Positions 24,568 through 50,530 of a stretch of DNA of 64,000 bases are shown piece after piece. Made by a program: the position numbers and the translations under genes. Source of the stretch: Limnoglobus roseus (GTDB lineage Bacteria; Planctomycetota; Planctomycetia; Gemmatales; Gemmataceae); contig NZ_CP042425.1 in the NCBI RefSeq assembly GCF_008254045.1, forward strand, positions 6,262,001 to 6,326,000, read 5' to 3'. Below the pieces are notes generated by a model, which saw nothing but the letters and a program-made list of their open reading frames with translations, was not told where the DNA came from and searched no databases. Positions within the stretch are counted from its first letter, which is position 1, and every line of letters begins with the position of its first letter.

Positions 24568-26634
<2,067 letters not shown>

Positions 26635-29229: not shown

Positions 29230-30228
29230 ATGCGAGCGGTGACGTTCATTCAGGGCGGCGGCATCGGCCACGATCAAGAACAGGCCGTGCGGCGGATCAT
29301 CGAGGCCGTCGGCGTGCCGATCCACTTTCAAACGTTCGCGTGCGCGGCCGCGGTCGAAGGCGGCGACCCGATCCCGGCTGAGGCGCTGGAGTCGATCAAG
29401 CGGAACGGCGTGGCCCTCAAGACGAAGCTGCTCCCGCCGAAATCAACGTCCACCAAGCTCCCGGCAAACGTCAACGTCGAGTTCCGCCGGCGGCTCGGCC
29501 TGTTCGCGTCGGTGCGGCCGACGCACAACATCCCCGGCCTGCCGAGTCGGTTCCAGGGTGTGGACTTCCACCTCGTCCGGGAGATCACCGAAGACCTGTA
29601 CACCGCGAGCGAACACGAGGTCGTGCCGGGCGTGGTGCAGAGTTTCAAGATCGTCACCGAGGCGGCCTGTGTTCGCTTCTTCCGCTACACCTTCGACCTC
29701 GCCCAGCGGAAGGGGCGGAAGTCGGTCCATTGCATCCACAAGGCGAACATCTTGAAGCTCGCCGACGGACTGTACCTCGACTGCTTCCGCAAGGTGGCGA
29801 AGGGCTTCCCGGAGATCGCGGCGAAAGAGATGATCGTGGACAACGCCTGTATGCAACTCGTCAGCCGGCCGCAGCAGTTCGAAGTGGTGGCGGCCGGCAA
29901 CCTCTACGGCGACCTGCTTAGCGACCTGGGGGCCGGGCTCGTCGGCGGCATCAGTGCGACCTCGGCGGTGAACGTCGGCGACGGCGTGAAGGTGTACGAA
30001 GCGGTCTACGGGGCCACGCACGATGCCGTGCCGCTGGACACCGCGAACCCGTTGCCGCTGGTTCTGCCGACGATTCAGATGCTCCGTGACCTCGGCGAAA
30101 CAACGGCGGCCGACCGAATCGAGCAAGCCCTGACGAAGCTGATGACCACGACCGACGTGCGAACCCGCGACCTCGGCGGCTCGGCCACGACGACCGCGTT
30201 CACGACACGATTGATCGAGATGTTGTGA
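29230..30228 (+). CDS. Divergent isocitrate/isopropylmalate-dehydrogenase-like protein
   Basis: 332 residues, clearly of the beta-decarboxylating dehydrogenase family: KANILKLADGLYLD, VDNACMQLV and YGDLLSDLGAGLVGG are kept, including the catalytic Lys and metal-binding Asp residues. Other key elements are changed against the paralogue at 40503: GDGIGPE is GGGIGHD, the substrate loop YRSINVRLR is PANVNVEFR, RENTEGLYAG is REITEDLYTA, and the NAD-binding HGSAPDIAGK is YGATHDAVPLD. It may use another substrate or cofactor or be inactive. ATG at 29230 with GAGGTGG 5 bases before. It is 77 bases upstream of the SOD gene, so co-transcription is possible. Confidence 0.85.
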   Translation: MRAVTFIQGGGIGHDQEQAVRRIIEAVGVPIHFQTFACAAAVEGGDPIPAEALESIKRNGVALKTKLLPPKSTSTKLPANVNVEFRRRLGLFASVRPTHNIPGLPSRFQGVDFHLVREITEDLYTASEHEVVPGVVQSFKIVTEAACVRFFRYTFDLAQRKGRKSVHCIHKANILKLADGLYLDCFRKVAKGFPEIAAKEMIVDNACMQLVSRPQQFEVVAAGNLYGDLLSDLGAGLVGGISATSAVNVGDGVKVYEAVYGATHDAVPLDTANPLPLVLPTIQMLRDLGETTAADRIEQALTKLMTTTDVRTRDLGGSATTTAFTTRLIEML

Positions 30229-30305: not shown

Positions 30306-31013
30306 ATGATTTCCCGCCGCCAGATGTTACAAGCCTCGGCCGCCACGGTCCTGCTCCCCACGCTCGCCGTCGCTCAAGGCGCGCCCGCCGCCGGGTTCAC
30401 GCTGCCGAAGCTCCCCTACGCCTACGACGCGCTCGAGCCGCACATCGACGCCGAGACGATGCTGATTCACCACGACAAGCACCACCAAGCCTACGTCACG
30501 AACCTCAACGACTTGCTCACCAAGAACGCCCCGGCCATGCTGGGCAAGCCGATCGAGGAAGTGCTGACCAACCTGAATGCGATTCCCGAAACGGCGCGCG
30601 CCGGCGTTCGCAACAACGGCGGCGGCCACTGGAACCACACGTTCTTCTGGAACATCATGACGAAGTCGCCCGCCCCCGCTCCGAAGGGCGATCTGCTCAA
30701 GGCGATCGACGACTCGTTCGGCTCGCTCGACAAGTTCAAGGTCGCGTTCAACGAGGCCGCCACGAAGCGGTTCGGCAGCGGTTGGGCGTGGCTCGTGCCG
30801 GGCAAGGAGAAGCCTCTGGCGATCGTCAGTTCGCCGAACCAGGACAACCCCGTGATGGACGGCGGCCCGGCTCCGATCCTCGGCGTGGATGTGTGGGAAC
30901 ACGCTTATTATTTGAAGTACCGCAACCTGCGGCCGAAGTACCTGGAAGCGTTCCAGAACGTCATTAACTGGGACGCGGTCGCCGAGCACTATTCGAAGGC
31001 GAAGAAAGCCTGA
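30306..31013 (+). CDS. Tat-exported Fe/Mn superoxide dismutase
   Basis: Superoxide dismutase with all four metal ligands in place: HHDKHHQAYV (first His), HWNHTFFW (second His), and DVWEHAYYL (Asp and His). NQDNPVM carries the Gln position typical of Mn-type or cambialistic enzymes. The N-terminus MISRRQMLQASAATVLL is a twin-arginine signal, so a folded, metallated enzyme should be exported. ATG at 30306; a TTG in frame lies at 30264. Length (235 with signal) is normal. A hairpin follows directly and separates it from the convergent DUF4337 gene. Confidence 0.95.
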   Translation: MISRRQMLQASAATVLLPTLAVAQGAPAAGFTLPKLPYAYDALEPHIDAETMLIHHDKHHQAYVTNLNDLLTKNAPAMLGKPIEEVLTNLNAIPETARAGVRNNGGGHWNHTFFWNIMTKSPAPAPKGDLLKAIDDSFGSLDKFKVAFNEAATKRFGSGWAWLVPGKEKPLAIVSSPNQDNPVMDGGPAPILGVDVWEHAYYLKYRNLRPKYLEAFQNVINWDAVAEHYSKAKKA

Positions 31014-31888: not shown

Positions 31889-34363
31889 ATGATTGTCCGC
31901 CCGGCCTACCTGGGATTGCTGGCCCTCGCCGTTCTCGGCTGCGGGATCTCCGTCGGCCCGATTACGGCCGGCGAATCGCCCGTCGGCAAACTGATCGCGG
32001 ACGTGGTACCGGTGAACAACCGCCTCCACCCGAAGGAGCACATCCTTAGCCAAATGCAAATGCGGCCGGGCAAGACGTACGACGAAGCCCAAATGAACGA
32101 GGACGTGCGGAAGCTCATCGCGACGAAGTGGTTCGCTCCGGACGGGGTGCAGGTCGAGACGACTGTTTCGGGCGACGGCAAGGTGACGATCTACCTCAAG
32201 TTGATCGAACTGAATAGCGTCGTCGACTCGGTAGAATTCATCGGCGCGCAGCACATCGGGAAAGACACACTTTTGCAACTGACGGGTATCCGCAAGGGAA
32301 GTGCCCTGAACCCGGCCTTCAACGAGGCGGCCGCGCAAATCATCGAGAACAAATTGAAGGAAGACGGCCGGGCGTACGCGACCTGCCGGCTGATGGAGGG
32401 GACCAAGATCACCGACAAGCGGGTGGTGTTCAACATCGTCGAAGGCCCGGTCGTGAAAGTCAGCCGGGCGTCGATCCGCGGTTGCCAGCAGACGTCGTCG
32501 GGCCGGGTCTCGACACAGTTGACGATCAAGGCACCTCTGTACGGGATCATCCGGTTCATCAACGACAAGTACAACGTGCTCCAGGTCGAGGACGACAAGA
32601 AGAAAATCATTAACTACTTCCACAAGCTCGGCTACCTGGAGGCCCGTGTGCAGGAGGAAGTCATCCCGTCGCGCGACCTGAGTAGCGTCGAGATCATCTT
32701 CCACGTCGACGAGGGAGCGGTCTACAAGGTGCGGGAGATCCGCCTCGAGGGGAACAAGATCTTCACCGCCGAACCGCTGCGAAGGCTGATCGAGTTGAAG
32801 CAGGGCGAGCGGTACGACCGCGACGTGATCGCGGCCGACGCGGCGCGGATCAAGAACTACTACGGCTACCGCGGGTACTACGTCGTTTGCGAAGAACAGT
32901 GGATCGCCGTGGCGGGCAAGCCCGGCTTCGTGGACGTGATCTATCAACTCCTCGAACCCGGTGCCCGCGACGGCGGGGCCGGCGCATCGAAAACGCCACC
33001 GGTCCGCCGCGTGTCGCACCAGGTGCCCCTCGACGACGGCTTCCCACTTCAGCGGGAACCGGACCGCATCGGCCGAATCGAGATTCGCGGGAACGAGGTC
33101 ACGATGGACCGCGTCATCCGCAACGAACTCGGCATGGCCGGCATCCGCGAGGGGCAAGTCCTTCAGTACCCGTCGCTCGAAGTGGCGAAACTCAACCTCT
33201 ACCGCCGCGGCATCTTCGACATGGAAGCGCCGCCGACCGTCGAGGTCCGCCAGAGCGACGTGGACAGCACCTTCAAAGACGTGATCGTGACCGTGAAGGA
33301 GACCCGCACCGGCCAGTTCATGATCGGCGGGGCGGTCAACTCGAACTCCGGTCTGACCGGCAACATCGCCATCAACGAGCGGAACTTCGACATCCTCCGC
33401 GTGCCGACGAGCCTCGACGACTTCTTGAACGGCCGGGCGTTCCGCGGGGCAGGGCAGGAACTGCGGTTGGAAGCCCAGCCCGGTACACTCTACCAGCGGT
33501 ACACGGCGACCTTCCGCGAGCCGTACTTGTTCAACACGAACTACGGCCTGACGACCAGCGGCTACTACTACAACCGCGGGTACGCCGAGTATGACGAAAA
33601 CCGCGTCGGCGCACGGGTCAGCCTCGACCGCCGCCTCGACCTGTACTGGCGGACGAACCTGACGACGCGGATTGAAGACGTGAACATCAAGAACCTGCCC
33701 ATCGACGCCCCCGATGCGATTACCCGCGACCGCGGCCACTCGACCATCGTCGGCATCCGGCCGGGGATCACCCGCGACTCGCGGGACAGTTACGTCTTCC
33801 CGACGACCGGGAGCGTGTTCGACCTGGCGTACGAACAACTCCTCGGCGACTACACCGTGCCCATCGGCACGGCCGAGTTCACGAAATTCTTCTCCAGTGA
33901 GTACCTCCAGCGGAAGGACGGCAGCGGCAAGCACGTGTTCGCGTTGCGGTCGCAAGTGTCGGCCACGTCGAGCGACGCACCGGTGTTCGAGCGGTTCTTC
34001 GCCGGCGGCTTCCGAAGCATCCGCGGCTTTAGCTTCCGCGGCGTCGGCCCGGCGTCTTACTCGGCCTACGGCAATAAGTACTTCACCGGGGGTACGTTCT
34101 CGTTCCTGAACACGATGGAGTATCAGATTCCGCTGAACGCGAAGGACTCGCTCTTCTTCGTGACCTTCCTCGACCACGGGACCGTCGAGCAGTCCATCGC
34201 GATTAAGGACTACCGCGTGTCGGCCGGCTTCGGGTTCCGCGTTTCGATCCCAGCCCTTGGCCCGGTGCCGGTGGCGTTCGACTTCGCGTTCCCGCTCAAC
34301 AGGACGGACACGGACAACAAGCAAGTCTTCGCCTTCTACATCGGCCTGTTCGGCGGCCAGTAG
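31889..34363 (+). CDS. bamA: Omp85/BamA outer-membrane assembly protein
   Basis: Outer-membrane beta-barrel insertase. Signal with a possible lipobox (LALAVLGCG), then a series of POTRA-like units (about residues 30-480; YLKLIELNSVVDSVEFIGAQ, KVREIRLEGNKIF and RIGRIEIRGNEVTMDRVI mark strand edges), then the barrel with its alternating pattern and the loop-6 motif FRSIRGFSFRG. It ends in aromatic FAFYIGLFGGQ rather than a bare terminal Phe. 824 residues, normal for the family. ATG at 31889 with GAGGGGAG before it. Shows that this organism has a diderm-type outer membrane. Confidence 0.94.
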   Translation: MIVRPAYLGLLALAVLGCGISVGPITAGESPVGKLIADVVPVNNRLHPKEHILSQMQMRPGKTYDEAQMNEDVRKLIATKWFAPDGVQVETTVSGDGKVTIYLKLIELNSVVDSVEFIGAQHIGKDTLLQLTGIRKGSALNPAFNEAAAQIIENKLKEDGRAYATCRLMEGTKITDKRVVFNIVEGPVVKVSRASIRGCQQTSSGRVSTQLTIKAPLYGIIRFINDKYNVLQVEDDKKKIINYFHKLGYLEARVQEEVIPSRDLSSVEIIFHVDEGAVYKVREIRLEGNKIFTAEPLRRLIELKQGERYDRDVIAADAARIKNYYGYRGYYVVCEEQWIAVAGKPGFVDVIYQLLEPGARDGGAGASKTPPVRRVSHQVPLDDGFPLQREPDRIGRIEIRGNEVTMDRVIRNELGMAGIREGQVLQYPSLEVAKLNLYRRGIFDMEAPPTVEVRQSDVDSTFKDVIVTVKETRTGQFMIGGAVNSNSGLTGNIAINERNFDILRVPTSLDDFLNGRAFRGAGQELRLEAQPGTLYQRYTATFREPYLFNTNYGLTTSGYYYNRGYAEYDENRVGARVSLDRRLDLYWRTNLTTRIEDVNIKNLPIDAPDAITRDRGHSTIVGIRPGITRDSRDSYVFPTTGSVFDLAYEQLLGDYTVPIGTAEFTKFFSSEYLQRKDGSGKHVFALRSQVSATSSDAPVFERFFAGGFRSIRGFSFRGVGPASYSAYGNKYFTGGTFSFLNTMEYQIPLNAKDSLFFVTFLDHGTVEQSIAIKDYRVSAGFGFRVSIPALGPVPVAFDFAFPLNRTDTDNKQVFAFYIGLFGGQ

Positions 34364-36408: not shown

Positions 36409-36650
36409 AAATGCTCGCGTCGCCCACTTCCATCGGGGTCGTTTGTTCTCAGGCTGCCGTATTTGCGGGCTGTGCCGACTGGGTAGAGTGACGCGAGTAT
36501 GTCTTTCGAAACAGACACTCCTTGTCAGTGGTGGACAAAGCCTGGTAGCCTAAGATGCAAGGGCATTTTAACCGATGCCCCACAACGAATCCGACCGAAC
36601 ACTCGTCATAGTTAGCAGAAACTCCGTCCGAATTGCACCGAGGTTCAACG

Positions 36651-38918
36651 ATGCCGCTTCGCGCGATTACACGATGGTTGGCTCCCGCACCCCGCCCGCA
36701 GCAAAAAATCCGATTATCTGCCGAACTGCTGGAAGGTCGTGAAGTCCCGTCCGTCACGTTATCGGACATCAGTAATTCCGACTTCTCGAACAACAAGCCG
36801 CTGTTCGTGCCCCTCACGAACACCGCCACGGTGAACGGAACGACGACCTACACCGCGTCGAGCAGCGACGCGAACGTGACGGTCAGCGTTCTGGCGGCCG
36901 GTCAGACGCTGAAACTCGACGTGTCCGGGATCGACAAGAACGGCGCGGCGTTCACCGGCACGCTGACGTTCCGCTTGTTCGCCGACGCCGCGCCACTGGC
37001 CGTGCAGCGGATCGTCGATCTCGTGGGGCAGGGGTTCTACAACAACAAAACATTCTTCCGCACCGCGGACAACTTCGTGATTCAGGGTGGGTCGTCGAAC
37101 AACACGGCCGCCGACCCGGGCGGCGTCGTGCCCGACCTTCAGGACGAGTACAATCCCGATTACACCTTCAACAGCCAGGGCATTCTGGCGTTCGCCAACG
37201 CCACCGACGACGCGAACGGCACGCAGTTCTTCGTGACCGACATCGACGTGCCGCTCGCGAACCGGCCGCAATACCTGAACTTCAACCACACGATCTTCGG
37301 CCAACTCACGAGCGGCTTTGATACGTTCGAGAAGATCATTCAGGGTACGCTCAAGAACGGGACGACGGACCAGGCGCAGAACCCGGCCACGATCACGAAC
37401 GCCAGCATCATCACGGACAACGCGAACGGCGTGTTACGGGTTCAGGCGGCCAGCGGCTTTACGGGCACGGCCACCATCACCGTGAACGGGGTCGATGGCG
37501 ACAACGCGACCCAATCGAAGACCTTCGCGGTCAACGCCGTCGCCGACACGGCCGACGATCGGCCCTATCTGCAGAACATCCCGAACATCTCCGTGACCTC
37601 GGGCAGTTCGACGACCGTCGTGCTGCCGGTCGTGAACCTGGACAACGACAACGCAGCTTTGACGTACCGCGTCGGTGTACCGGGCAACCTCTTCGGCACG
37701 CCCGCGAACGTGACGACGAGCGTGAACAACACCACTGGCGAACTAACCGTCACCGCGGCCAGCGGCTTCACCGGCACGGTCACGCTGCTCGTCGGTGTCC
37801 GCGACAACACCGACCGCGTGGGGTCGGGTGTGAACACGGCATCGAATTTCGACACCCAAACGGTCACGGTCACGGTCACAGCGGCCGGCCCCGCGACCGT
37901 GGCGTTGACGGCATCGAAAACTTCACCGCAGGCCAACCGCACCGTCCTGCTCACCGCGAATGTTTCCGGCAGCGACACGGCGGGTGGCGGGACGGTCAGT
38001 TTCTTCGACGGGACGACGTTGCTCGGATCGACACGGCTGCTCGACGGGCGGTCGAACCTCAGCACCGTGTTCACCACGACCGGCACGCACACCATCACCG
38101 CCCAGTTCACGCCGACGAGCGGCTCGGCTTCGACGGCCACGTCGAACACCGTAACTCTGACCGTCGTCGTGGGCACGGCCCCGGAGGCGATTACCGCCAG
38201 CCCGGTGGCCCAGGGCGGTCTGCCGGTCGTCGTCGCGAAAAACGCCGACAGCACCGAGCGTTTCACGGCCCAACCGTTCGAGGCGAGCTTCACCGGCGGC
38301 GTCCGGGTGGCCGTGGCCGACGTGACCGGCGACGGGCAGGCCGACCTCGTGACCGTCGCCGGCTTGGGCGGCGCGCCGGTCATTAAAGTCTTCGACGGGA
38401 CCGACGGGACGCTGTTGCGGACGTTGACGATCTTTGAAGACACCTTCCGCGGCGGCCTCTACGTTGACGCGAAGGACGCACTCGGCAAGGGGTACGCCCA
38501 GATCCTGGTCGGCGCGGGTCTCGGCGGCGGGCCGCGGGTGAGCCTGTACGACTTCGTTCAAGATAAGGTCGTGCTGAACTACTTTGCGTACGACTCGAAC
38601 CTGCGGAGCGGCGTCGTCATCTCCCTCTCCGACCTGCGGGGCGGCGAGCAGTACCAAATCCTGACCACCCCCGGTCAAGGCGGGGCACCGGCCGTTAGCG
38701 TCTTCACCGCCCGCCGCGACGACGGCTTCCCGGTTCCGACGTCCCTCGGTTCGTTCTTCGCGGGATCGCAAACCGACACCGCTGGCCGCCGCGTCGGGGC
38801 AGGAGCGGTGGGGGCAAACGGCGTGCGAAACATTCAGGTCTTCGAGTTTTCGGACGAGTCGACTGCCAGCCCGACGGAGTTCAGCCCGATCGACCAAGGG
38901 ATCTTCCCGTCCTCGTGA
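36651..38918 (+). CDS. Surface protein: cyclophilin domain, Ig-like repeats and FG-GAP-like end
   Basis: 756 residues. N-terminus RPQQKIRLSAELLEGREVPS is the planctomycete LEPR-type leader seen on large secreted proteins. Then a cyclophilin-type domain (about 95-230): FRLFADAAPLAVQRIVD, FFRTADNFVIQGGSS, GTQFFVTD and FNHTIFGQ; the His of the usual FHR is Phe. Next come several Thr/Val-rich Ig-like domains (about 240-500) with ASGFTGTATITVNG/AASGFTGTVTLLVG repeats and FFDGTTLLGS, and a C-terminal FG-GAP/integrin-like part (VAVADVTGDGQADLVTV, AGLGGAPVIKVFDGTDG). ATG at 36651 with GAGG 8 bases before. Followed by a strong terminator. Confidence 0.88.
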   Translation: MPLRAITRWLAPAPRPQQKIRLSAELLEGREVPSVTLSDISNSDFSNNKPLFVPLTNTATVNGTTTYTASSSDANVTVSVLAAGQTLKLDVSGIDKNGAAFTGTLTFRLFADAAPLAVQRIVDLVGQGFYNNKTFFRTADNFVIQGGSSNNTAADPGGVVPDLQDEYNPDYTFNSQGILAFANATDDANGTQFFVTDIDVPLANRPQYLNFNHTIFGQLTSGFDTFEKIIQGTLKNGTTDQAQNPATITNASIITDNANGVLRVQAASGFTGTATITVNGVDGDNATQSKTFAVNAVADTADDRPYLQNIPNISVTSGSSTTVVLPVVNLDNDNAALTYRVGVPGNLFGTPANVTTSVNNTTGELTVTAASGFTGTVTLLVGVRDNTDRVGSGVNTASNFDTQTVTVTVTAAGPATVALTASKTSPQANRTVLLTANVSGSDTAGGGTVSFFDGTTLLGSTRLLDGRSNLSTVFTTTGTHTITAQFTPTSGSASTATSNTVTLTVVVGTAPEAITASPVAQGGLPVVVAKNADSTERFTAQPFEASFTGGVRVAVADVTGDGQADLVTVAGLGGAPVIKVFDGTDGTLLRTLTIFEDTFRGGLYVDAKDALGKGYAQILVGAGLGGGPRVSLYDFVQDKVVLNYFAYDSNLRSGVVISLSDLRGGEQYQILTTPGQGGAPAVSVFTARRDDGFPVPTSLGSFFAGSQTDTAGRRVGAGAVGANGVRNIQVFEFSDESTASPTEFSPIDQGIFPSS

Positions 38919-40502: not shown

Positions 40503-41501
40503 ATGAAATTCGTTATGATCGAGGGCGACGGCATCGGCCCGGAAGTCACTCGCGCGGCGTGCGAGATCGTTAAGGCGGCCGGCGTTCGAAACGAGTGGGT
40601 GCCGGCCGCCGCCGGCCTCGGCGCGGCGGAACAATTCGGCGAGCCGCTACCCGATGAAACACTGGAGACGATTCGCCGGCACCGGGTCGCACTCAAAGGC
40701 CCCTGCACTACCCCGGTCGGCAAAGGATATCGCTCCATCAACGTGCGGTTGCGGCAAGGGCTCGACCTGTACGCGAGCGTCCGGCCGGTGAAGACACTGC
40801 CGGGCGTGAAGGTCCCCTACACGGACGTGGACCTGATCGTGGTGCGGGAAAACACCGAAGGGCTGTACGCCGGGCTGGAACACGTTGTTGTGCCCGGCGT
40901 CGTCGAGAGCTTGCGCGTCATCACCAAGAACGCGGCCGAGCGGATCGTCCGATACGCATTCGAGTTCGCCCGGCAGCACGGACGGCGGCGGGTCACGTTC
41001 TGCCACAAGGCGGACGTGATGCGGCTTTCGGACGGCCTGTTCCTGGATTGCGCCCGGGCGGTCGCGGACGAGTTCCCGTTCATCCAGTTCGAAGAAAAAC
41101 CGATCGACAACGTGTGCCTTGAACTCGCGATGGACCCCACGCGGTTCGACGTGCTGGTCATGGAAAACCTGTTCGGCGACGTGGTTTCAGACTTGTGTGC
41201 CGGCCTCGTCGGCGGGTTGGGGGTGGTGCCGGGAGCGAACTTCGGGGCGCGGTGCGCCGTGTTCGAGGCCGTTCACGGAAGTGCACCGGACATTGCCGGG
41301 AAGGGGTTGGCGAACCCGATCGCGGTCGTCCGCAGCGCGGCGATGATGCTCGATCACGTCGGCGAGCGCGACGCGGGCGCACGTATCGAGGCTTCGGTTG
41401 CGAAGACGTTGCAGCGGGGAATCGGGCTCACCCGAGATCTGGGTGGCGACGGAACAACGGCCACGATCACGCGGGAGTTGATCGCGAACCTAACGGCGTG
41501 A
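40503..41501 (+). CDS. NAD-type isocitrate dehydrogenase-family enzyme (IDH/homoisocitrate group)
   Basis: 332 residues with the full set of beta-decarboxylating dehydrogenase motifs: MIEGDGIGPEVTRAA, KGPCTTPVGKGYRSINVRLR, VRENTEGLYAGLEHVVVPG, HKADVMRLSDGLFLD, DNVCLELAM, MENLFGDVVSDLCAGLVGG and EAVHGSAPDIAGKGLANP. RENTEG argues for IDH or homoisocitrate dehydrogenase rather than isopropylmalate dehydrogenase. The short length fits the NAD-dependent group. ATG at 40503 with GGGAG 8 bases before. It ends 1 base before the convergent anti-sigma gene. The role is probably the TCA cycle; the exact substrate needs assay. Confidence 0.9.
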   Translation: MKFVMIEGDGIGPEVTRAACEIVKAAGVRNEWVPAAAGLGAAEQFGEPLPDETLETIRRHRVALKGPCTTPVGKGYRSINVRLRQGLDLYASVRPVKTLPGVKVPYTDVDLIVVRENTEGLYAGLEHVVVPGVVESLRVITKNAAERIVRYAFEFARQHGRRRVTFCHKADVMRLSDGLFLDCARAVADEFPFIQFEEKPIDNVCLELAMDPTRFDVLVMENLFGDVVSDLCAGLVGGLGVVPGANFGARCAVFEAVHGSAPDIAGKGLANPIAVVRSAAMMLDHVGERDAGARIEASVAKTLQRGIGLTRDLGGDGTTATITRELIANLTA

Positions 41502-43440: not shown

Positions 43441-43599
43441 CGCCCTCCTCAGATTCCCTGCCATCTGCACTGTAGTTGAAAGGCGAGCTCCCGTCGAGAG
43501 TTGCGGTTTGGTAGTCGCGTTCATACCTCGTGCGGCAGGAGCGGAACCCCTCCGGCGGGGTAACCTGCCCGGTTTGTGACTTTTGTGCCGGTTGTGCGG

Positions 43600-43629
43600 T
43601 TGTACAAAGGTAGTGTGCGTGTGTATCCT
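43600..43629 (+). promoter_or_regulatory. Possible promoter of the uvrA gene
   Basis: TTGTAC (43600-43605), 18-base spacer, TATCCT (43624-43629); AGGAGG follows at 43641-43646. A leader of about 22 bases is implied. Confidence 0.38.
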
Positions 43630-43657
43630 AACCCTGACTCAGGAGGTCAGTCCGGGT

Positions 43658-46600
43658 ATGGAAAGCCAGAACATTGTCGTCCGCGGTGCGCGGGAACATA
43701 ACCTTCGGAACGTCAACCTCGAACTCCCTCGAAACAAGCTCATCGTCTTCACCGGCGTCAGCGGCTCCGGCAAAAGCTCGCTGGCCTTCGACACGCTCTA
43801 CGCCGAAGGGCAACGGCGGTACGTCGAGTCGCTTTCCAGCTACGCACGCCAGTTCCTCGGCCAACTCCCGAAGCCGGACGTGGACTACATCGGCGGCCTG
43901 TCGCCGGCGATCAGCATTCAACAGAAGTCGGCCAGCCGGAATCCGCGGTCCACGGTGGGGACGATCACAGAAGTCGCGGACTACCTCCGCGTGCTGTTCG
44001 CCCGCGTCGGGCAGGGCCATTGCGCCAAGTGCCAACGGCCGATCACCGCCCAGACGCGCGAACAAGTCATCGGCCGGATTCTCGCGCTGCCGGAGCGGAC
44101 GCGATTCCTGCTGATGGCCCCCGTGGTTCGCGGGCAGAAGGGGGAGTTTAAGGACTTCTTCGCCGACATGCTCAAGCGCGGCTACGTCCGCGCCCGCGTG
44201 GACGGCCAGGTGGTGAAGCTGTCGGACGATCTGAAACTCGACAAGCGGATCAAGCACACCATTGAGATCGTCATCGACCGCCTGGTCGTCGAGTCGCGAG
44301 TGCGGCCGCGGTTGGCCGAAGCCGTCGAACAGGCGCTGTCCCTCGCGGACGGGGCGGTCATCGTCTCGGTGGAAGCGAAAGACGGCACGGCAGAAGACAT
44401 CCTCCTCTCGGCGAACTACGCCTGCACGCACTGTAACATCAGCTACGAACCGCCGACGCCGCAGTTGTTCAGTTTCAACAGTCCGATGGGGATGTGCCCG
44501 GAGTGCGACGGCCTCGGGACGAAGTACAGTTTCGACGCCACCCTGCTCCTCCCCGACCCGACGAAGAGCATTCACGAGGGGGCGATCACCCTGCTCGGCT
44601 CGTTGAAAAGCATGGGGCGATGGCGGCGGCACATTTACGAGGGTGTCGGCAAGTCGTTCGGCATCGACCTGAAGCAACCGTGGGAGGAACTTCCCCCGGA
44701 ACAGCAAAACCTCGTCTTGTACGGGAGCGGCGACCGGCACGTCGTCTGGGAGTGGAAGCAGCGCGGCGGTAAGGTCTGGAAGCACGGCGGCAAGTGGGAG
44801 GGCGTGATCCCGCAACTGGAATCGCAGTTCAAGAAGGCGACGGCCGGGCCGCGGCGGATGCAGCTCGAAAAGTACATGAGCGTGATGAAGTGCCCCGCCT
44901 GCAACGGCCAGCGGCTCAACCCGCAGGCCCGGTCCGTGCGCGTCGGCAGCCGGACGCTGATCGAACTCGGCAAGATGCCGATCGGCGACCTCGTCCCGTG
45001 GTTCGACGCGATGGAAGGCGAACTGTCCGCCGTCCAACGGCACATTTGCGGGGAGTTGCTGAAGGAAATCCGCGCGCGCCTCGGCTTCCTCCTGAACGTC
45101 GGCCTGCACTACCTCAGCCTCGACCGCCCTGCCCCGTCCCTCTCGGGCGGCGAGACGCAGCGCATCCGCCTCGCCGGGCAGATCGGCAGCGGCCTCGTCG
45201 GCGTGCTGTACATCCTCGACGAGCCGAGCATCGGCCTCCACCCGCGGGACAACATCCGCCTGCTGCGAAGCCTCGAACGGCTCCGTGACATGGGCAACAC
45301 CGTCCTCGTCGTCGAACATGACGAGGACACGATGCGGGCGGCCGACTACCTCGTCGACTTCGGCCCCGGCCCCGGCGTGCGCGGCGGGCAAATCGTGGCA
45401 GCGGGTTCGCCCGCGGAAGTGTTCGCCAACCCGGACAGCCCGACCGGCCAGTACCTAACTGGCGCGAAGGAAATCGCCATCCCGAAGGAACGCCGCAAGG
45501 GGAACGGCCAGGCCATCGAGGTCATCGGTGCACGGCACAACAACCTGAAGAACGTCAGCGTCAAGATTCCCCTCGGCCAGTTCGTCGTCGTCACCGGCGT
45601 CAGCGGCTCCGGGAAGTCGTCACTCGTCAACGACATCTTGATGGAAGCCCTCGCCACGCCGAGCAAACCTGAGTCGGAGGAGGACGGCGACGAGACACTC
45701 CACTCGATCGGCGAGCACGACGAGATTCGCGGCCGCGAGTTCATCGACAAGGTCATCGACATCGACCAGACGCCGATCGGCCGGACGCCGCGGTCGAACC
45801 CGGCAACGTACATCAAACTGTTCGACGAAATCCGTCAGCACTTCGCGCTGATGCCCGAGGCCAAAGTCCGCGGCTACAAGCCGGGGCGGTTCAGCTTCAA
45901 CGTCCCCGGCGGCCGATGCGAAGCCTGCCAGGGCAACGGCTCGAACCGGCTGGAGATGGACTTCCTCGCAGACGTGTGGGTGACGTGCCCGGTGTGCGAG
46001 GGCCACCGCTTCAACCGCGAAACGCTCCAGGTGAAATACCGCGGCAAGTCGATTCACGACGTGCTCGAAATGGAAGTCCTGCAGGCCCTCGAACACTTCG
46101 AGCACGTCCCGAAAATTCGCCCGATGCTCCAGACGCTCCACAACGTGGGGCTCGACTACATCAAGCTCGGTCAACCGTCGCCCACGCTTTCTGGTGGCGA
46201 GGCGCAGCGCATCAAACTGGCGAAGGAACTGTGCCGGGCGAGCACGGGCAAGACGCTCTACATCCTTGATGAACCGACGACCGGCCTGCACTTCGAAGAC
46301 ATTCGCAAACTGCTCGACGTACTGCACGGCTTCGTCGCGGCCGGAAACTCGGTGCTGGTGATCGAGCACAATCTCGACGTCATCAAGACCGCCGACTGGC
46401 TGATCGACATGGGGCCGGAGGGCGGCAGCGGCGGCGGCACGGTCGTCGCCGTCGGCACGCCGGAGGTGATCGCCAAGACCGACGCCTCGTACACCGGGCA
46501 CGCCCTCCGCCCCCTACTCTTCCCCGTGCCGAAGAAGAAGACCCTGAAGAAGGATAAGGTCGAGGCGAAGCCGGTCCACGAGCGGATCACCCACCTGGAA

Positions 46601-49600
46601 GTGCAGGGCGCGCAACAGCACAACCTGAAGAACGTCTCGGCCCGCATTCCGCGCGAGAAGATGAGTGTCTTCTGCGGGCCGTCGGGGTCCGGCAAGTCGT
46701 CGCTGGCGCTCGACACGATCTACGCCGAGGGCCAGCGGCGGTACGTCGAGTCGCTGTCGAGCTACGCCCGCCAGTTCCTCGGCCAAGTACAAAAGCCAAA
46801 GGTCGAGCACATCACCGGGCTGTCGCCGGCCGTGAGCATCGAGCAGAAGACGACGAGCAAAAGCCCGCGGTCCACGGTCGGCACGATCACCGAGATTTAC
46901 GACTACCTCCGCATCCTCTATGCCCGCCTCGGCCAGCGGTACTGCCCGAAGTGTCAGGTGCCGATCGGCACACAGACTGCGGACGAGATCGTCGAGAAAA
47001 TTCTCGGTCTGCCGGAAGGGACGAAACTGTACGTGATGGCCCCGCTCGAACGCAAGGGCCAGGAGAAGTACGAGACGCTGTTCGAAGAGATTCGGCGGGC
47101 CGGGTTCGTGCGGATGCGAATCGACGGCAAGTCGTACAACCTCGACGAACCGCCGGTCATCGACCACAAGCGCAAGCACCGCGTCGAGATCGTCGTGGAC
47201 CGCAACGTCGTCAAGGCCGGCACGCGGACGCGCATCGCGGAGGCGGTCGAACAGTCGCTCGACCTCGGCCGCGGCGTCATGCACCTCGCGTACGTGGAAG
47301 CCGACAAGGACGAGACGCAGTGGCGCGTGGAGCGGTACTCCCAACACCTCGCCTGCGATCAGTGCGGCACAAGCTATGAGCACCTGAACCCGCACAACTA
47401 CTCCTTCAACAGCCCGCTCGGCTGGTGCCCGACGTGCGAGGGCCTCGGCTCGCAACGCGGGGCGAACGCGAACTTGCTCGTCGGCGACACGTCGAAGTCG
47501 CTCCGCGACGGGGCGATCACGGCGTGGCCATCGCTCGCCGCCGGCGGCGCGTGGTTGCCGTTCGCAGAAGCACTGGCGAAGCACGCCGGCTTCTCGCTCG
47601 ACACGCCCTACGTCCGGCTCTCGCCCGAACACCAGCGGGCGGTCATGCACGGCACCGGCGAAGTCTGGCTGAAGATTGAGCCGAAGGCGAAGAATCAACG
47701 CGAGCCACGCTTCCAGTACAAGGGCTTGTTCCCGAGCGTGGACGAAGCGTCCCGCGTGAGCTTCGTCTACCGACAGCGGCTCGACCATCTTGTGGACGAA
47801 GTCCCCTGCTCCACCTGCCAGGGGTCGCGGCTGCGGTCCGACGCGGCCGCCACACAGTTTGCGAACCACACGCTCGGCGACCTCGGCGGCCTACCGCTCC
47901 GCGATTCGCTCACACTCTTCAACACCCTCAAGATGTCGAAGACCGAGAAACAGGTGGCCGGCGAAATCCTCCGCGAGATCACGAACCGGCTGAAGTTCCT
48001 TGTCGATGTCGGCCTCCATTACCTCTCGCTGTCGCGGCCCGGCCCCACCCTCTCGGGCGGCGAGGCGCAGCGCATCCGGCTGGCCTCGCAGATTGGCAGT
48101 GGGCTGACGGGCGTGCTGTACGTCCTCGACGAGCCGACCATCGGCCTCCACCCGCGTGACAATCTGCGATTGTTGAAGGCGCTCCACCACCTACGCGATC
48201 TCGGAAATACGCTCGTCGTCGTCGAACACGACCGCGAAGTGATCGCGTCGGCCGACCACCTGCTCGATTTTGGGCCAGGCGCGGGCGATCAGGGCGGCGA
48301 GATCACCGCGTCGGGTCCGGTCAAGCAGGTGTTGAAGTCGAAGGACTCGCTCACGGGGAAGTACCTCGCGGGCAGCCTGGCGATTCCGGTGCCCACCAAC
48401 CGCCGCGTCGTGAGCGAACCGTTCGCCACAGACCACCCGACCCCGGAGGAGATCGTCGCCCGCGCACCGGCCGGCGCGGCCATCACCATCGTCGGGGCGC
48501 GGCAAAACAACCTCCGCAACCTCGACGTGAGTATCCCGCTCGGCGCGTTCGTTGCGGTGACGGGCGTGAGCGGGTCGGGGAAGTCATCACTCATCAACGA
48601 GGTGCTGTACAACACGCTCGCCCGCAAGTTGAACCGCGCCCGCACTGCCGGGTCCGCCGTCGATGAAATCCTCGGCCTGGAGAACGTCGATAAAGTCATC
48701 AACGTCGATCAGGATCCGATCGGCAACTCGCCGTCGTCGAACCCCGTCACGTACACCGGCGTCTTCGACCTGATCCGCGAACTCTTCTCGCGGCTGCCCG
48801 AGTCGAAGGTCCGCGGCTACCACCCCCGCCGCTTCAGCTTCAATCAGAAGGGCGGCCGCTGCGAGGCTTGCGAGGGCATGGGGCAGAAGAAAATCGAGAT
48901 GCACTTCCTGCCGGACGTGTGGGTCGAGTGCGACACCTGCCACGGCAGCCGGTACAACCCGGAAACGCTGGCCGTGAAGTTCCACGGCCGGTCGATCTCG
49001 GACGTGCTCAACCTGCGAATCACCGAGGCCCTCGAACTGTTCGGAAACATCCCGAAGATTCGCATCGTGCTGCAAACGCTCGCCGACGTGGGCCTCGGGT
49101 ACATGGCCCTGGGCCAACCGGCACCGACCATGAGCGGTGGCGAAGCCCAGCGCGTGAAGTTGGCCGCGGAGTTGGCCCGGCCGAGCACCGGCCGCACGAT
49201 CTACGTGCTGGACGAGCCGACCACCGGCCTGCACTTCGACGACGTGCGGAAGTTGCTCGACGTGTTGCACCGCCTCGCGGACATGGGGAACACGGTCGTC
49301 GTCGTCGAACACAACCTGGACGTGATCAAGTCGGCCGACCTGGTCATCGACGTCGGCCCCGAGGCGGGCATCGGCGGCGGGCAGGTCGTCGCGCAGGGGA
49401 CGCCGGAACAGGTCGTCGCCCAGGGGCAGTTGCCGGGCGTGGTTTCGCACACGGCGACCATTCTCGCGAAGGTTCTGGCCGACGGGCCACACCAGAAGCG
49501 AGAGAAGTTCGACCCGAAGAAGGCGCTCGCGGCCAAAGTCGGCGACATCGACATCGCGCAAGTCGGCGACGACGCCCTGCTGCCCTGGGAGGAAGACGGC

Positions 49601-50530
49601 AAGCGGTGGCACACGAAGGACCGCGTCACCAGTACCGGCAAGCCGTGCAAGTGGGACGGCGCGACGCTGTCGTTCGTCGAGGAAGAAGTCCACAAGCTCG
49701 GCACCTTCTCCGACACCAACTGGAAGCACCGCAGCGTCGTGGAGGTCGCGGCCGAGGTGAAGTCGCACGGTTGGTTCTTGCACGCCCTGACCGGCCACGA
49801 GGCGTATCTGAAGCTCGTGTTCCGGGTGGCCCGCGGCACCTTCAAGGAAGCCGACCTCACGGCGGCACTTGCGTTACCGCCGCTCAGCGACACGCCGGGG
49901 TTGGAGGGGTACGCCCGTGACGGCAACCGCGTCGAGATTTCAACTTCGCCCGGCTTGCAGCAGGTCGTCGTGATCGTGCATAAGTTGGATGACGTAAAGA
50001 CGCCAGCGTTCTTCGCCTTCCTCAAGAAAGCGGCCGAGTCGTTCCGAGGGTTGATCAATCCCGATCAGAAGGGCGTGGAAGATTACATGCCCTGGAAGAA
50101 GGACGGCGAGAAGTGGCACCTCGGCGAGAAAGGCTTCCCACCGGGCAAGAAGCTGAAGTGGGATCGGGGTGCCCTGCCCCTCTTGCTGAAGCTCGTGCGC
50201 GACTCGGCCCCCGACGTGGAGGTGAAGTGGGACAGCCGCGATCACATCCTCTTGAAGTTGCCGGGTGCCCCGAAAGCGTTCGCATGGTGGCGGACGAAAG
50301 AAGCGAACGCGCTCGTCTGCAATTTCGTCATCCGCGTCGGGCAGTTCAACCTCGCCCGCGTCGAGGGGTTCAGCCGAAACGCGGAACTGACCGGCGACCG
50401 CACCGATAGCACGCAGGTGCTCAAAATGGAGTTCACCTCGCCCGAGATGCTTCGCTCGAAAGCGTTCCTGACGTTCCTCGCGGAATACCTCGCCGGCTTC
50501 CGCGAGGCGTTCGCCAAGGCGGCCGTCTGA
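43658..50530 (+). CDS. uvrA: Tandem-fused UvrA (two complete UvrA in one chain) with duplicated C-terminal domain
   Basis: 2290 residues against about 940-1000 for normal UvrA. Residues about 1-955 and 975-1945 are each a full UvrA: Walker A sites near 33, 647, 1007 and 1636 (GVSGSGKSS or GPSGSGKSS), four LSGGE/MSGGE signatures, the insertion-domain start [17 protein letters not shown] twice, and the CxxC zinc modules of each half ([11 protein letters not shown]...[17 protein letters not shown]...CDTCHG; CTHC/CPEC and CDQC/CPTC). UvrA normally works as a dimer with four ATPase sites, so one chain could equal one dimer. Residues about 1970-2290 hold two related units beginning [10 protein letters not shown] and [13 protein letters not shown] at 43658 with AGGAGG 11 bases before. 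Confidence 0.95.

Follow-up and report, generated by a model that had tools for sequence, protein, structure and literature searches.

Introduction

Type I isocitrate dehydrogenases (IDHs) form dimers in which each active site is assembled from two chains: the cis chain supplies the coenzyme loop, three Arg, a Tyr and two Asp residues, and the trans chain supplies the catalytic Lys, an Asn contacting the nicotinamide and one metal-binding Asp.

In human IDH3, the active site of the alpha subunit is described as using Lys182 and Asp215 of gamma (PMC5241874), the nicotinamide in the gamma site as touching Asn175 and Asp206 of alpha (PMC5816668), and alpha on its own as showing no catalysis (PMC9731866). 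PMC8333347 presents NAD-IDHs that pair a catalytic with a dead regulatory chain as eukaryotic: its analysis, using two bacterial outgroup sequences, places the origin of the catalytic/regulatory split in eukaryotes, with prokaryotes mostly having a homodimeric enzyme. No report of a bacterial or planctomycete heteromeric IDH was found in the open-access literature searched. Bacterial type I NAD-IDHs such as those of Xanthomonas (PDB 6ltf/6m3s, titled dimeric) and Methylococcus (6lky), about 335 aa long, combine complete cis and trans sets in a single chain.

Unlike these enzymes, the two genes described here do not code for a chain with both sets complete; the first of the two products shares full-length homology and 38% identity with them by structural alignment. 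They lie in a 64,000-nt stretch of the Limnoglobus roseus genome (hereafter, the window) and are designated DEG (nt 29230–30228, + strand), predicted to code for an IDH-like non-catalytic partner subunit, and INT (nt 40503–41501, + strand), its intact paralogue and the predicted catalytic NAD-IDH subunit.

Identification of the Two IDH-like Genes

DEG is a single frame running from ATG to stop with no internal stop, and codes for a 332 aa homologue of type I IDHs. The protein scores 231 bits against Pfam Iso_dh (PF00180, cut-off 27), and its best NCBIfam model is TIGR00175 (mito_nad_idh), at 336.9 bits against a curated cut-off of 432.4. Indeed, none of the 16 matching NCBIfam families (isocitrate, homoisocitrate, isopropylmalate and tartrate dehydrogenases) reaches its curated cut-off, so that no family of known activity claims the protein. 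An AlphaFold model built from 16 orthologues (mean pLDDT 87.3) has the IDH fold, its nearest PDB neighbour being human IDH3 alpha (6kde_A; Z 40.6, rmsd 2.1, 326 residues aligned).

INT, also of 332 aa, carries intact motifs (54/54 orthologues at nearly every position) and scores 390.2 bits with TIGR00175, again under the cut-off of 432.4. Its Asp263 aligns with Asp268 of human alpha, a residue described as critical for cofactor specificity (PMC9731866), and INT was thus assigned NAD as its putative coenzyme.

Residue Replacements in DEG

Motifs were aligned in 52 DEG and 50 INT proteins from one family, later widened to 57 and 54 with another family of the order; ORFs shorter than 300 aa and identical proteins were left out before counting. 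A preliminary description of this DNA had proposed that DEG keeps the fold, the catalytic Lys and the metal Asp residues of an IDH, with loss of GDGIGPE, RENTEG, the substrate-loop Ser and HGSAPDIAGK, all present in the paralogue at 40503. Both the alignment and the AlphaFold model bear this out, and the coenzyme motifs are replaced in register with those of INT, not shifted.

GDGIGPE is replaced by GGGIGHD (residues 9–15; nt 29254–29274, +), the Asp to Gly change being common to all 57 orthologues. The substrate-loop Ser (Ser78 in INT, Ser82 in human alpha) is replaced by Asn80 (nt 29467–29469, +), the orthologues having Asn (53/57) or Tyr (4/57). REITED stands for RENTEG (residues 117–122; nt 29578–29595, +) with Arg117 kept; across orthologues this is mostly RE[I/L]TED, with Asp for Gly in 57/57, although TED by itself is no sign of decay, Asp being found there also in 8 of 29 reference IDHs. 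Finally, the coenzyme loop HGSAPDIAGK has become YGATHDAVPL (residues 260–269; nt 30007–30036, +), and the intact coenzyme-binding motifs are thus absent from DEG.

The remainder of the active site is retained to a large extent. The HKANILK loop (residues 170–176; nt 29737–29757, +) is conserved in 57/57 and contains the catalytic Lys171 together with Asn173, both predicted to reach into the active site of the partner. Asp204 (nt 29839–29841, +) is the counterpart of human gamma Asp215, the metal ligand contributed in trans, and Asp228 and Asp232, the metal ligands of its own cleft, are conserved in all orthologues within NLYGDLLSD (residues 224–232; nt 29899–29925, +). Altogether, the catalytic Lys, the three metal Asp, the Asn84 equivalent and the tricarboxylate Arg residues (human alpha 88, 98 and 119) are present in 57/57, and the Tyr126 equivalent in 56/57. 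The equivalents of Thr74 (Thr in only 3/57) and Ser82, ligands of the isocitrate gamma-carboxylate, are gone.

Some replacement residues are themselves fixed, namely Gly10, Asp122, Lys140 and Pro276 (57/57 each), and the Lys-Asp-Tyr interface relay of human IDH3 is likewise retained in all 57 DEG proteins. The same triad of human alpha (Lys142-Asp181-Tyr228) reads Arg-Asp-Phe in INT (54/54), so that any signal relay could not equal that of human IDH3 unchanged and must differ.

Opposite Losses in DEG and INT

The trans set is present in every aligned DEG orthologue, and the coenzyme-binding cis set is lost; INT keeps the cis set, and every aligned orthologue has lost the trans Asn. In INT the trans loop reads HKADVMR (residues 168–174; nt 41004–41024, +), with Asp171 for Asn and Arg174 for Lys. 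The trans Asn is found in 31/31 reference proteins, 57/57 DEG and 0/54 INT, where Asp (41), Glu (7) or Ser (6) takes its place. If DEG holds no nicotinamide, the trans Asn of INT would be left without a job; a homodimer of INT would, in turn, be without a trans Asn.

The pattern was quantified against 31 references, consisting of 29 homologues from other planctomycete families, retrieved with INT as query, and two bacterial PDB enzymes. Among 79 columns conserved in at least 90% of them, 39 are retained in both DEG and INT; losses confined to DEG affect 22 and those confined to INT 3, and 15 are partly lost. Those lost only in DEG (among them, in INT numbering, Asp9, Pro67, Thr70, Ser78, Asn117 and Pro262) lie outside INT residues 163–212 in 21 cases, the single exception being Thr165. 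Those lost only in INT (Asn171, Ile172 and Lys174) all fall within the trans loop. This cis/trans split of losses gives a Fisher p of 0.0017, with the 163–212 boundary chosen after the conserved residues had been seen. An earlier count (6/6 and 24/24, p 1.7e-6) was set aside for its biased trans columns, most of its reference rows having been fetched through the DEG patterns C[VI]HKANIL or EDLY..; the redone count, with rows taken by similarity to INT, is weaker but still clear.

Distribution, Co-occurrence and Gene Order

Among 102 genomes of the order Gemmatales, 67 have a full-length DEG and 2 a fragment of it; for INT the corresponding numbers are 63 and 3. Counting fragments, 64 genomes have both genes, five DEG alone, two INT alone and 31 neither (Fisher p 1.3e-18, uncorrected for kinship); INT thus accompanies DEG in 64/69 genomes. 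The five genomes with DEG alone are 65, 68, 75, 93 and 94% complete, and one of the two with INT alone is rated 100% complete. Both genes are present in two genomes of the window's genus and absent from two others.

Searching 294 phylum-level genomes gave no match at E<=1e-90 except in the window's own genome. In a named-genome scan with the DEG profile, 80 of 237 relatives were kept: the first 56 (52–72% identity) are titled Gemmataceae/Gemmatales or planctomycetes, save a few titles that look like misnomers ("Bacteroidales"), and the remaining 24 (at most 47% identity) have an intact GDGIG motif and are closer to INT than to DEG. A cultured bacterium with the gene is Zavarzinella formosa DSM 19928, where DEG is on NZ_JH636439.1. 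As far as searched, DEG is confined to the order Gemmatales.

Both genes could be placed in 63 pairs. In 26 of these they are on the same strand no more than 1.5 kb apart, invariably with INT first and DEG just downstream (26/26), and in the tightest seven the distance between stop and start is -4, -4, -1, -1, 1, 9 and 9 bp. The two genes are on different contigs in 27/63 pairs. In the window's genome DEG is upstream of INT with 10.3 kb between them; such spacing and reversed order indicate that the linkage has been broken there.

Neighbouring Genes and Other IDHs

The ORF following DEG (nt 30306–31013, +) codes for a Fe/Mn superoxide dismutase (PF02777/PF00081) with an apparent Tat-type signal, SRRQMLQ, recognized by eye. 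The gene noted in the preliminary description is therefore real, and its position is incidental: it adjoins DEG in only 2 of 139 DEG loci, many of them with only short flanks, and both from the window's genome. Across the same 139 loci the VWA neighbour is not conserved either.

Further ORFs of the window include an Omp85/BamA-like protein with four POTRA stretches (nt 31889–34363, +) and a protein of 761 aa that combines cyclophilin and Ig-like domains with another C-terminal region (nt 36633–38918, +). A 2315-aa ORF (nt 43583–50530, +) has two UvrA interaction and two UvrA DNA-binding stretches, the layout of a head-to-tail fusion of two UvrA units, to which additional C-terminal sequence is attached. 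On the opposite strand (nt 24568–26628, -), ThiC (PF01964, 627 bits) makes up the C-terminal two thirds of an ORF whose listed start takes in N-terminal sequence that is unrelated.

PF00180 matches four genes of the window's genome: besides DEG and INT, these code for a type II NADP-IDH and for a protein resembling tartrate/isopropylmalate dehydrogenases. The eukaryote-type NADP-IDH matches TIGR00127 with 671 bits (cut-off 397), and the tartrate/isopropylmalate dehydrogenase-like protein barely passes two families (TTC, 470.8 vs 470.4; PRK03437, 396.5 vs 393). No monomeric IDH was found in this genome. Another IDH-type gene occurs in 58 of the 64 genomes with the pair, in overlapping sets (type II in 20, icd-like in 27, long PRK09222-like in 15, and one monomeric IDH fragment), and the same searches found none in the other six. 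An additional type of IDH, about 480 aa long and with one member passing PRK09222, was observed in 18/102 Gemmatales genomes; in the five aligned members TE[G/D] has Asp and the NAD-specificity position is Lys.

Phylogenetic Analysis

Trees were inferred under LG+C20+F+G4 from 82 and 80 rows, a 299 aa sequence and some near-copies having been left out of the latter. In both, DEG, INT and the eukaryotic NAD-IDH subunits form one clade each. In the tree of 80 rows, the eukaryotic alpha/beta/gamma/IDH1/IDH2 clade has support 100/96, and INT groups with planctomycete single-copy IDHs, not with the eukaryotic ones. Descent of DEG from mitochondrial regulatory subunits was rejected: the trees do not unite them, and a constraint that groups DEG with the eukaryotic regulatory sequences lowers the likelihood by 21.0 (AU p 0.046) and 24.6 log units (AU p 0.024). 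There is thus moderate evidence that DEG is not a descendant of those subunits; its stem is long and its placement unsure. A strong likeness around MIVDNACMQLVSRPQQFEV, which had first suggested such descent, was discarded as a sign of kinship with the mitochondrial regulatory subunits, a very similar stretch being found in XcIDH. DEG and INT may or may not be sisters produced by a duplication: forcing them together gave AU p values of 0.216 (82 rows) and 0.052 (80 rows).

Discussion

These results indicate that DEG is probably the non-catalytic subunit of a heteromeric NAD-dependent IDH, having INT as its catalytic subunit. The suggestion of a regulatory protein made in the preliminary description is thereby supported and made specific. 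INT and DEG would form the basic dimer, in which INT would bind NAD and isocitrate, and DEG would bring Lys171 as general base and Asp204 as metal ligand into the site of INT. A working site made of INT-cis and DEG-trans residues would make each gene need the other.

Some observations stand against such a heteromer. The genes are separated and in reversed order in the window's genome, lie on different contigs in many pairs, and in seven genomes occur one without the other. Moreover, INT retains the trans Lys and the trans Asp (54/54), so an INT homodimer is conceivable, and the missing trans Asn neither proves a heteromer nor is needed for one, since human alpha keeps this Asn and yet needs a partner.

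What the cleft of DEG itself does is less clear. Since DEG keeps its own Arg86, Arg96, Arg117, Tyr124, Asp228 and Asp232, we propose that the NAD-less cleft might still bind Mg-isocitrate or Mg-citrate and act as an allosteric site, a proposal to which we give slightly less than an even chance; with the gamma-carboxylate Thr and Ser missing, ligand binding there is a guess.

Alternatively, DEG could be a purely structural partner of INT, like human IDH3 beta, completing the active site and sensing no ligand. This reading is nested within the heteromer and denies only allostery. Conservation and linkage fit it equally well, the loss of the gamma-carboxylate Thr and Ser agrees with it, and human beta is an example of such a subunit (PMC7752914). 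We nevertheless regard it as rather unlikely, because three Arg, the Tyr and both own metal Asp, kept in 56–57 of 57 DEG proteins, are beyond what a structural cleft needs, and human beta, unlike DEG, has lost the Arg98 and Asn84 equivalents and both metal Asp.

That a dead subunit needs none of the catalytic Lys, Tyr and three metal Asp conserved in DEG could also point to a stand-alone enzyme, acting on another hydroxy-acid or decarboxylating a beta-keto acid (oxalosuccinate, for instance) without a coenzyme. Such an activity, which we consider improbable, would explain neither the almost strict co-occurrence of DEG with INT and their operon order nor the corresponding absence of the trans Asn from INT, and the coenzyme loop of DEG is replaced. 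A different substrate, as previously suggested, is disfavoured, all metal and most tricarboxylate residues being kept and the coenzyme site lost; moonlighting found no support.

The distance between the genes in the window, the pairs split between contigs and a co-occurrence test uncorrected for kinship would be compatible with two separate homo-oligomers with separate jobs, found together through shared pathway use or genome ancestry. That the genes overlap or lie no more than 9 bp apart in seven pairs, and that the two proteins show opposite patterns of residue loss, makes this very doubtful. As for a decaying pseudogene or sequencing artefact, to which the several missing canonical motifs might have pointed, it is ruled out by the conservation of DEG in 57 aligned orthologues, with intact frames and fixed replacement residues across the order.

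Beyond the pairing of INT with DEG, we tentatively suggest that Gemmatales may have evolved a heteromeric allosteric NAD-IDH independently of mitochondria, with its chains locked together by opposite losses. The substrate or citrate might be the allosteric signal, as DEG, unlike the mitochondrial regulator, has its metal site whole and its isocitrate site largely preserved, but no place for a coenzyme. If true, INT should be inactive or weak alone and rescued by DEG, with Lys171 and Asn173 of DEG essential in trans; the NAD- and NADP-linked IDHs of the window's genome would be divided as in eukaryotic cells; and a second, bacterial origin would show which changes suffice to make an obligate heteromer of a TCA-cycle enzyme that was homodimeric.

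Comparison with Mitochondrial NAD-IDHs

The division of labour proposed for INT and DEG is similar to that of human IDH3 and yeast IDH2/IDH1. Like INT, the catalytic subunits (human alpha, yeast IDH2) have the cis motifs and the NAD-specificity Asp. Their trans loop has drifted as well: yeast IDH2 has Thr at the trans Asn position, where human alpha has Asn, and both have Arg at the Lys174 position, a Lys to Arg change shared with 31/54 INT proteins; IDH1, beta and gamma keep both Asn and Lys.

A further point concerns the clasp of the tetramer, for which contacts are described between Gln139 of alpha and Glu148/150 of gamma/beta (PMC7752914). At the corresponding column all 54 INT proteins have Glu and 55 of the 57 DEG proteins Gln, the mirror of five eukaryotic chains, with Gln in the catalytic and Glu in the regulatory ones. 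This column varies in single-copy homologues of other families, where Glu is also common, and the mirrored clasp, noticed after the fact, is a weaker hint of INT-DEG pairing.

Like DEG, the mitochondrial regulatory subunits (human beta and gamma, yeast IDH1) have the Iso_dh fold, keep the trans Lys, Asn and Asp, have lost the coenzyme loop HGSAPDIAGK and are encoded together with an intact catalytic paralogue. On the contrary, only DEG has GGG for GDG and Asn for the substrate-loop Ser, and it keeps the Arg98 equivalent and both own metal Asp, all lost in IDH1, beta and gamma: at the positions of alpha 230 and 234, Asn or Thr in the mitochondrial regulatory subunits stands against Asp in 57/57 DEG proteins.
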